Assembly (NCBI GenBank): GCA_937958695.1
Contig: CALGNK010000019.1
Span: 1 to 58,693, forward strand
Length of the DNA stretch: 58,693 bases
Source: an uncultured bacterium
GTDB taxonomy: Bacteria > DUMJ01
Reading direction: 5' to 3'
Shown here: in pieces, positions 13,335 through 15,251 of the stretch
Layout: the number at the start of each line of letters is the position of its first letter
Numbering within the stretch: position 1 is the first letter of the stretch
Program-made: the position numbers and the translations under genes
Notes under the pieces: generated by a model
What the model saw: only the letters and a program-made list of their open reading frames with translations
What the model was told of the DNA's origin: nothing
Database searches by the model: none

Positions 13335-14726
13335 ATGGAAGGACCATTTAAGCCTACCTGGGAATCTTTAGAGAATTATCAAGTTCCTCAGTGGTATCTT
13401 GATGCAAAGTTTGGAATCTTTATACACTGGGGGGTATATTCAGTTCCAGCCTTTGGAAATGAATGGTATCCGAGGAATATGTATAGACAAGGGAGTCGAG
13501 AGTTTGAGTATCATATAAAAACTTATGGGCATCAGAAAGAGTTTGGTTATAAAGACTTTATCCCAGTGTTTACTGCTGAGAAATTTGACCCAGATAAATG
13601 GGCAGACTTATTTTTGAAATCAGGTGCAAAGTTTGTAGTTCCAGTTGCCGAACATCACGACGGATTTGCTATGTATGATTGTAGTTATACAAAGTGGAAT
13701 TCAGTTAAGATGGGTCCTAAGAGAGATATCATAGGAGAACTGGCTAATGCTATACGTAAAAGGTATCTCGTTTTTGGCGTCTCTTACCATAGGGCAGAGC
13801 ATTGGTGGTTTTTCCATGAAGGTATGAAGTTTGATTCTGATGTAAGAGATCCAAGATTTACAGACTTTTATGGACCTGCTCAACCAGAAACTACACAGCC
13901 AAACGAGGAGTTTTTAGAAGACTGGTTAAATAGATTATTTGAGCTTGTGGATAAATATCATCCTCAGATAGTCTGGTTTGATTGGTGGATAGAACAGCCT
14001 GCATTTGAGCCTTATCTGAGGAGATTTGCTGCCTATTATTACAACAGGGGTTTTCAATGGAATAGAGGAGTTGCCATAAATTATAAAAATCAGGCATTTC
14101 CAAGAAAGGCAGCAGTATTTGATGTTGAACGTGGGCAACTAGGTGATATAGATCCGTATTTCTGGCAGACAGATACGTCTGTATCTAAGAACTCCTGGGG
14201 ATATATAAAAGACCATGACTACAAGACTTCAGAATGGATTATCTGCGACTTAGTAGATATAGTAAGCAAAAATGGAGCCCTCTTATTAAACATTGGTCCA
14301 AAACCTGATGGCACTATTCCAGAGCCTGAAGAGAAGATTTTACTTGAGATAGGGCAGTGGCTCTTAGTTAATGGTGAGGCTATATATGGGACAAGACCGT
14401 GGAAGGTATATGGAGAAGGACCGACAAAGGTTATTCATGGTTCTTTTGCCGACACAAAGAGGAGTGAGTTTACAGGGCGAGATATAAGATTCACTACAAA
14501 AGGAGATGTTCTATACGCTGTAGTTCTGGGTAAACCTGAGAGGGATGAGATATTAATACAATCTCTAAGTTCAAATCTAAAGCTATTTAATAAAGATATA
14601 AGTGATGTGAAAATATTAGGTGTAAATGAGAAGATAACCTGGGTTAGAAGTGAAGAGGGATTAAAGGTAAAGCTTCCTGAACATTTAGATACAAGGTTTC
14701 CTTTTACACTAAAGATTATTACGTAA
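13335..14726 (+). CDS. GH29 alpha-L-fucosidase
   Basis: A 463-aa enzyme releasing terminal alpha-L-fucose from glycans. Hallmarks are KFGIFIHWGVYSVPAFGNEW near residues 28-47, the VAEHHDGFAMYD loop, and the nucleophile Asp in IVWFDWWIE at about 215. A C-terminal beta-sandwich begins near residue 350. There is no signal peptide, so it is probably intracellular. A strong AAAGGAGGGAAAG precedes the ATG. It is monocistronic and is followed by the MITE-like palindrome. Confidence 0.94.
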   Translation: MEGPFKPTWESLENYQVPQWYLDAKFGIFIHWGVYSVPAFGNEWYPRNMYRQGSREFEYHIKTYGHQKEFGYKDFIPVFTAEKFDPDKWADLFLKSGAKFVVPVAEHHDGFAMYDCSYTKWNSVKMGPKRDIIGELANAIRKRYLVFGVSYHRAEHWWFFHEGMKFDSDVRDPRFTDFYGPAQPETTQPNEEFLEDWLNRLFELVDKYHPQIVWFDWWIEQPAFEPYLRRFAAYYYNRGFQWNRGVAINYKNQAFPRKAAVFDVERGQLGDIDPYFWQTDTSVSKNSWGYIKDHDYKTSEWIICDLVDIVSKNGALLLNIGPKPDGTIPEPEEKILLEIGQWLLVNGEAIYGTRPWKVYGEGPTKVIHGSFADTKRSEFTGRDIRFTTKGDVLYAVVLGKPERDEILIQSLSSNLKLFNKDISDVKILGVNEKITWVRSEEGLKVKLPEHLDTRFPFTLKIIT

Positions 14727-14738
14727 TGATAGAAAAAC

Positions 14739-14838
14739 TAGTACCGGAAGTACCAGAAGAACCATCTTTTTAGAACAATTTTTCCGGCCTATATAGAAAT
14801 TGTTTGAAATACGTGGTTCTCCTGGTACCGTGGTACTA
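14739..14838. mobile_element. MITE-like 100-bp imperfect palindrome with TA ends
   Basis: The left arm (14739-14764) begins TAGTACCGGAAGTACC, and the right arm (14814-14838) ends GGTACCGTGGTACTA. Aligned as inverted repeats, the two 25-26-base arms match at about 21 positions. Inside them AACAATTT and AAATTGTT form a further inverted pair, so almost the whole 100 bp can fold into one hairpin. Both ends are TA, the duplication produced by IS630/Tc1-type transposases. No coding frame is present. It could instead be a large terminator or REP-like structure for the fucosidase gene. The remaining spacer (14839-14930) shows nothing else clear. Confidence 0.55.
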
Positions 14839-14930
14839 TGTAAGGTGATTGATAGATAAGTAGAATGAGTACAGGTCAGTATGCTGGGATATTGATTTTG
14901 CAGAAAAATTTGGTATACTATTTATAGGTT

Positions 14931-15008
14931 CGGGGCGTGGCGCAACTTGGCTAGCGCGCTTGGTTTGGGACCAAGAGGTTGAAGGTTCAAATCCTTTCGC
15001 CCCGACCA
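14931..15008 (+). tRNA. tRNA-Pro (UGG)
   Basis: The acceptor stem CGGGGCG/CGCCCCG, a D-arm, the anticodon stem CTTGG/CCAAG with loop TTTGGGA (anticodon TGG), a T-arm with TTCAAAT loop and encoded CCA (15006-15008) are all visible. It is first of four clustered tRNAs. Confidence 0.96.
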
Positions 15009-15010
15009 AT

Positions 15011-15087
15011 GCGCCCATAGCTCAGGTGGATAGAGCAACAGACTTCTAATCTGTGGGTCGCGGGTTCGAGTCCTGCTGGGCGCGCCA
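15011..15087 (+). tRNA. tRNA-Arg (UCU)
   Basis: The acceptor GCGCCCA pairs with TGGGCGC. The anticodon stem ACAGA/TCTGT holds loop CTTCTAA (anticodon TCT). The T-loop is TTCGAGT and CCA is encoded at 15085-15087. It reads AGA/AGG codons, which are heavily used in this window. Confidence 0.96.
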
Positions 15088-15089
15088 TT

Positions 15090-15167
15090 GGTGAATGTAG
15101 CTCAATTGGTTAGAGCGCTGGACTGTGGATCCAGATGTTGGGGGTTCGAGTCCCCTCATTCACCCCA
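15090..15167 (+). tRNA. tRNA-His (GUG)
   Basis: The acceptor GTGAATG pairs with CATTCAC. The extra 5' G at 15090 opposes discriminator C15164, the diagnostic G-1:C73 pair of tRNA-His. Loop CTGTGGA gives anticodon GTG, and CCA is encoded at 15165-15167. Confidence 0.96.
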
Positions 15168-15174
15168 TTTTATT

Positions 15175-15251
15175 GCGCCTGTAGCTCAATTGGATAGAGC
15201 AGCGGACTTCGGATCCGCTTGTTGGGGGTTCGAGTCCTCTCAGGCGCGCCA
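15175..15251 (+). tRNA. tRNA-Arg (UCG)
   Basis: The acceptor GCGCCTG pairs with CAGGCGC. The anticodon stem GCGGA/TCCGC holds loop CTTCGGA (anticodon TCG). The T-loop is TTCGAGT and CCA is encoded at 15249-15251. A second arginine isoacceptor in the cluster. Confidence 0.95.

Follow-up and report, generated by a model that had tools for sequence, protein, structure and literature searches.

A dispersed palindrome in an uncultured bacterium is a probable orphan copy of a stem-loop replication origin

The closest described counterpart of the element analysed here is the replication origin of plasmid pRN1. According to the accessible part of the original report, replication depends on a 100-nt stem-loop located 54 bp after orf904; on its own and at another position, this stem-loop restores replication, and structures like it are mentioned for other pRN plasmids and phage BIP-1 (PMC4234260). 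Excerpts of an independent study likewise describe this 100-bp stem-loop as essential (PMC3869888). A second counterpart is found in the streptococcal phage Sfi21, whose sequence record annotates, 3′ of the primase gene, a 302-bp "origin of replication ... phage inhibitory sequence". In the available sections of a report on this origin region, additional copies of it block the accumulation of invading phage DNA (PMC6356513). For the PICI satellites of Gram-negative bacteria, the origin is stated, in the part of the text at hand, to lie downstream of the primase gene (PMC10111431). Within the portions of the open PMC literature consulted, no description was found of iterons in the pRN1 stem-loop, nor of orphan chromosomal copies of such an origin.

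The DNA considered here, termed the window, is the whole 58,693-nucleotide stretch of an uncultured bacterium (contig CALGNK010000019.1). Between the stop of an alpha-L-fucosidase gene and a cluster of four tRNA genes, it contains an imperfect palindrome of 100 bases (Table 1). Folded as RNA, positions 14729-14848 form one long imperfect hairpin of -41.3 kcal/mol (z -5.7; none of 200 dinucleotide shuffles as good), the base of which lies approximately at the two ends of the palindrome. As DNA, the fold of 14735-14842 has a z of -5.2, and again none of 200 shuffles is as good. The inverted-repeat score of this copy, taken in a 400-base stretch, exceeds those of all 100 shuffles. The palindrome is absent from the list returned by a general repeat finder, probably because its arms are broken by mismatches. 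An earlier note, made from the sequence alone, had described a near-complete palindrome at 14739-14838 with TA at each end and a single copy in the window; the two folds confirm it as an imperfect hairpin, the TA dinucleotides are its outermost pair, and the count for the window is right, with a second copy elsewhere in the same genome. Directly 3′ of the inserted stretch lie a promoter-like sequence and the tRNA genes in the order Pro-Arg-His-Arg (14892-15251), and the start of this cluster is conserved in both congeneric genomes, G001 and G002.

Table 1 Features of the window copy and its surroundings
Feature	Positions	Strand	Basis or remark
Alpha-L-fucosidase gene	13335-14726		
161-base stretch with a 14-base counterpart in G001	14729-14889	.	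Empty site, G001:C140 6543 to 6558
Element proper, imperfect palindrome/stem-loop	14739-14838	.	RNA and DNA folds; covariance model match of 92.4 bits
Left arm, three 9-bp-spaced boxes TACCGGAAG, TACCAGAAG, AACCATC	14742-14766	+	Spacing common to sister copies
AT-rich centre with conserved CTATATAG	14767-14809	.	Invariant alignment columns
Right arm, three inverted boxes TACGTGGTT, CTCCTGGTA, ACCGTGGTA	14810-14835	-	
Right-hand tail	14839-14880	+	Common to the second G000 copy (G000:C3:11695-11822) and to the fragment G000:C3:60744-60794 (minus strand)
Four-tRNA cluster	14931-15251		Promoter-like sequence ahead of the cluster starts at 14892

The palindrome is probably an orphan copy of a stem-loop replication origin of the pRN1/streptococcal-phage type, and an origin function of the family would follow from its likeness to pRN1 and Sfi21. 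In this family, each arm carries three boxes at a spacing of ~9 bp, inverted round an AT-rich centre. The boxes of the window copy are eroded, with an arm repeat that by itself gives a p of 0.45 (0.11 in the second copy of the same genome), compared with p ≤ 0.007 in the three G002 copies and 0.042-0.06 in the two G001 copies. It nevertheless matches at 92 bits a covariance model that was built from this copy and its six sisters, and its classification rests on the family.

Three genomes of one genus were compared: G000, from which the window derives, G001 (MAG SKW194, JAOACC01) and G002. A DNA search of G000 returns two copies, the window copy on C19 and a second at G000:C3:11695-11781 (91% over 87 bases). 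Similarity between the two extends to 14880 (86% over 14752-14880), so that what is repeated in this genome extends beyond the palindrome. The large (~100 nt) stem-loop of the pRN1 type is present in the window copy and weak in the C3 sister, the DNA fold of which has a z of -2.0 with 5 of 200 shuffles as good. Pieces of the LacI-type gene of C3 recur at G000:C51:147-565 and G000:C9:1-146 with 97-99% identity; these pieces lie at or near contig ends and probably reflect a repeat or an assembly break. With the covariance model, seven copies are found across the genus (G000: C19 and C3; G001: C133 and C40; G002: C386, C203 and C37), each reported on both strands because it is a palindrome. No eighth copy appears at E ≤ 1 in the three genomes, among the 150 of 336-392 candidates scored per genome. 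When 40 genomes (the three of the genus and 37 from other parts of the domain) were searched with the G000 query, matches were confined to G000 and G001; this search also missed the G002 copies, which were recovered with other queries, and could therefore miss distant copies. DNA similarity searches of phage and plasmid records and two exact patterns run on viral contigs returned no copy, and the viral contigs gave one weak match to the primase discussed below.

Five of the seven copies, including that of the window, have no primase-helicase gene alongside and are here called orphans, and each of these is missing from the corresponding site of at least one relative. The junction between the fucosidase gene and tRNA-Pro is without the element in G001, where it is shorter by a net 147 bases, and in G002 other DNA, also without the element, follows the fucosidase gene. 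The sites of the other four are empty as well: C3 in G001, C133 in G000 and G002, C203 in G001 and C37 in G000. For the G000:C3 and G001:C133 sites, which aligned poorly because of how the pieces were cut, the flanks were compared by eye; in the remaining comparisons of orphan sites, the flanks lie on different contigs. The sole site common to two species is G001:C40/G002:C386. Identity between copies is 99% within G001, 95-99% within G002 and 86% within G000, compared with 72-86% between genomes. This excess within genomes indicates that the copies were made, or homogenised, after the species split. The element is dispersed and is not a terminator of the fucosidase gene.

Such dispersal is what a MITE moved by a transposase, of IS630/Tc1 or other type, would also produce, and this is the main rival explanation, although it is considered unlikely. 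Like MITEs, the seven copies are short, palindromic and intergenic, and TA or TTAA can be written at some of their ends; the place beside the primase-helicase gene would then be one old insertion. A TA duplication can be written at the window site, where the flanks in the empty-site alignments are too diverged to settle the point. Both orphan copies of G002 (L045:2500-2620 and L046:2480-2600) are bounded on each side by TTAA, a possible 4-bp target duplication. In contrast to MITEs, the family has no constant ends: the G000 pair shares ~42 extra right-hand bases, the G001 pair ~13, and the two G002 copies end at TTAA. Moreover, a MITE leaves unexplained both the 9-bp boxes and the recurrence of such stem-loops beside other DUF5906 genes. 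One observation speaks against an origin and for some mobile-type unit. The 42-base tail of the G000 copies recurs without the palindrome as a 51-base fragment at G000:C3:60744-60794 (minus strand; L155:545-595), which is 80% identical to the last box and right-hand tail of the window copy; such a lone tail, which brings the places with this tail in G000 to three, is expected of a broken MITE copy and is left unexplained by an origin. The fragment lies upstream of a reading frame that, by eye, resembles ribosomal protein S15. The two readings are compatible: what a transposase moved could itself have been an origin. The earlier note had suggested a non-autonomous IS630/Tc1-type element, to be recognised by further copies or an empty site in a relative and refuted by conservation 3′ of the fucosidase gene. 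Its mobile-element reading stands as far as the copies (two in G000, seven in three genomes) and the shortened G001 junction are concerned, and conservation at that place is seen in neither relative. The IS630/Tc1 assignment finds no support in the TTAA-bounded pair and the ends that differ from genome to genome, and the anatomy and gene context of two sister copies point instead to an origin.

That gene context is provided by the two copies that share a site. The stem-loop begins 24 bases (G001:C40) or 27 bases (G002:C386) after the end of a gene for a D5_N and DUF5906 primase-helicase, a P4-family primase (TIGR01613). By Pfam, the G001 protein of 689 residues carries Prim-Pol, D5_N and DUF5906 domains, as does ORF904 of pRN1, and the G002 protein of 450 residues retains D5_N and DUF5906 without Prim-Pol. 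In G002:C386 (L044:1166-2518), the shortened frame is still open and adjoins an intact stem-loop; this protein may need a primase from elsewhere. The two proteins are 80% identical over 450 residues, with a dN of 0.13 and saturated dS, which points to selection for function. The plasmid relatives of the G001 protein include the replicases of pRN1 and pHEN7 (34-37% over the C-terminal 276 residues) and, for the N-terminal part, that of Caldicellulosiruptor pATHE01 (40%). The pRN1, Javan385 and Sfi21 proteins have a C-terminal Pox_D5 domain. Pfam detects no C-terminal DNA-binding domain (Pox_D5 or winged helix) in either protein of the genus, so that their DNA-binding part is putative. A profile match to ORF904 among solved structures was discounted, as the profile itself contained ORF904; a weak match of the same profile to RFX5, at its C-terminal part, had an E of 0.00098. 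In G000, the same neighbourhood, marked by a HEPN-MNT pair and a glycerol kinase gene, holds a 32-residue scrap of the gene (L055:2494-2601, G000:C7) that adjoins the intact HEPN-MNT pair, and the covariance model places no element beside it among the 150 of 336-392 candidates scored per genome. The HEPN-MNT pair is intact in G001 also and is broken in G002:C386 (L044:2640-3200), where similar DNA contains only frames of fewer than 50 residues. Against an origin, it must be weighed that the linkage is one orthologous locus in two species.

Compared with the described origins, the family shares with pRN1 a ~100-nt stem-loop directly after a Prim-Pol, D5_N and DUF5906 replicase gene, a 9-bp-spaced repeat in each arm and an AT-rich loop. 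It differs in the sequence of the boxes and in the lack of an adjoining replicase at the window copy. A position directly 3′ of a Prim-Pol/SF3/winged-helix replicase, as in pRN1, is partly reproduced at two of the seven copies and is absent at that of the window. The Sfi21 origin is also 3′ of the gene for a DUF5906 protein and consists of inverted 8-bp repeats round an AT-rich centre; unlike the family, it is phage-borne, spans a longer stretch (167 nt) and, in the sections available, is reported to protect against phage through increased copy number (PMC6356513). The placement of the origin downstream of a primase gene is shared with the PICI satellites, as given in the excerpt cited above (PMC10111431), whereas no integrase or satellite gene was recognised by eye beside the primase-helicase gene of the genus.

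To place this arrangement in a wider frame, a PF19263 search of 386 genomes was used, which gave 29 positive genomes and 33 matches, 30 of them with loci (27 genera). The 400 bases 3′ of each gene (fewer at contig ends) were tested, and a stretch passed if its inverted arms exceeded all 100 shuffles and an arm repeated itself at a lag of 7-12 with p ≤ 0.05. Ten of the 30 DUF5906 loci passed, compared with 1 of 174 pieces taken from elsewhere in these loci (Fisher 1.1e-8), in a test that was devised once the pattern had been seen in some loci and was thus not blind. Without the two loci of the genus, the counts are 9 of 28 and 1 of 162 (p 8.5e-8), the other 19 genes outside the genus failing the joint test; inverted arms alone occur in 12 of 30 and 2 of 174. 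A first run had given 11 of 30, the difference being the G001 locus (C40), with a p of 0.048 then and 0.06 later. The lags of the nine passing loci outside the genus are 8 (four loci), 9 (two), 10 (two) and 11 (one). The only control that passed both parts is at L115: a strong inverted repeat, with internal repeats of 10 bp, that lies within a DUF5906 frame at its 3′ end. At L121, a stem-loop with GTGTGTCTG-like boxes lies ~320 bases after the DUF5906 gene, outside the 400-base stretch, and was not counted. Orphans were also sought in 12 genomes with 11 stem-loops. Eleven of these genomes showed their own stem-loop (G385 showed none), and none of the 11 contained a clear orphan copy, with only part of the candidates scored in two genomes. 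A second near-full copy was seen in one genome only (G230:C1, 96%), where it is situated 3′ of another DUF5906 match, the second in that genome. Orphaning may therefore be peculiar to the genus of the window.

The same two tests were applied to 13 plasmid and phage records chosen by the authors. Inverted arms beyond all 100 shuffles are present in ten, and three pass both tests: pRN1 (lag 9, p 0.014), pSR11 (lag 9, p 0.004) and Javan385 (lag 8, p 0.022). Two are borderline at lag 9, pHEN7 (p 0.06) and a Halomarina plasmid (p 0.08). A stem-loop without significant repeats is seen in pRN2, pSSVx, pDL10 and the Alicyclobacillus and Lacticaseibacillus plasmids, and no significant stem-loop was detected in pIT3, pATHE01 and pGEOTH02. 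High scores also occur in control pieces of pRN2 (20.0) and pATHE01 (17.5); the values of 21.5 for pRN2 and 22.0 for pSSVx among the controls come from the tested stretch itself, which the circular record presents a second time. The Sfi21 origin passes both tests at lag 8 with a p of 0.002.

A transcribed structured RNA or a bidirectional terminator would account for the very stable fold, for the three of 30 stem pairs in the alignment of copies that changed on both sides with pairing preserved, and for the position of the G001:C40 copy between convergent genes. This explanation is nonetheless very improbable: divergent genes flank at least three of the copies (G000:C3, G001:C133 and G002:C203), the site is not conserved in the relatives, and between 14600 and 15450 no terminator is predicted on the plus strand and one on the minus strand, against 0.9 expected. 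The large structured RNA that the earlier note had offered as an alternative gains nothing from Rfam, in which no family reaches its cut-off over the element (the best, mir-2513, scores 24 bits against 89). An intrinsic terminator of the fucosidase gene was considered separately and rejected, as the plus strand has no terminator-like site (a stem followed by a T run) and the site is not conserved. Least likely of all, and barely credible, is a binding site for a chromosomal regulator or nucleoid protein: both G000 copies lie near fucose-related genes (the alpha-L-fucosidase gene, and that of a FucU/RbsD-type protein beside the LacI-type reading frame) and the window copy lies just ahead of the promoter-like sequence, but no fucose gene was recognised by eye in the reading frames adjoining the relatives' five copies, and ~100 bp with six boxes far exceeds the length of a LacI operator.

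If the element is an orphan replication origin, its history and mode of action may be pictured as follows. In its home context, the stem-loop stands 24 or 27 bases after the D5_N/DUF5906 primase-helicase gene, and the C-terminal part of the encoded protein would bind the 9-bp-spaced boxes of both inverted arms. The helicase would then open the AT-rich centre, where priming would begin. Copies would have been placed at other intergenic sites within each species, the copying presumably running from the home locus outwards, and this placement would be more recent in the two species with a retained gene. In G000, only a scrap of the gene is left, and the two copies still present have drifted apart. 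The eroded boxes of the G000 copies fit a loss of constraint once the primase was lost. Since G000 retains only this scrap, the window copy has most likely become an inactive relic.

A further proposal is that orphan copies are kept or made as decoy origins and, more generally, that DUF5906 replicases share one origin code of 8-11-bp boxes inverted round an AT-rich centre directly after the gene; this is regarded as quite doubtful. The decoy reading is suggested by the protection attributed to copy number in the available text on Sfi21 (PMC6356513). As decoys, the orphans would titrate the replicase of plasmids, satellites and phages that enter the cell and use the same boxes, or would cause it to mis-prime. 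This would be a natural chromosomal counterpart of the protection that Sfi21 origin DNA in multiple copies is reported to give. A number as low as two or three per genome speaks against strong titration. The stem-loop origin of pRN1 has been set apart because it is said to lack iterons. The present comparison suggests that pRN1, Sfi21 and a share of unstudied origins follow one plan, with inverted short boxes round an AT-rich centre directly after a DUF5906 replicase gene. Such a plan, if real, would make it easier to find the origins of plasmids, prophages and satellites that are still uncharacterised, and it allows a test of which part of the protein recognises the boxes. Finally, the scatter of orphan origins on a chromosome raises a question as to their nature: relics, short mobile elements of a new kind, or decoys.
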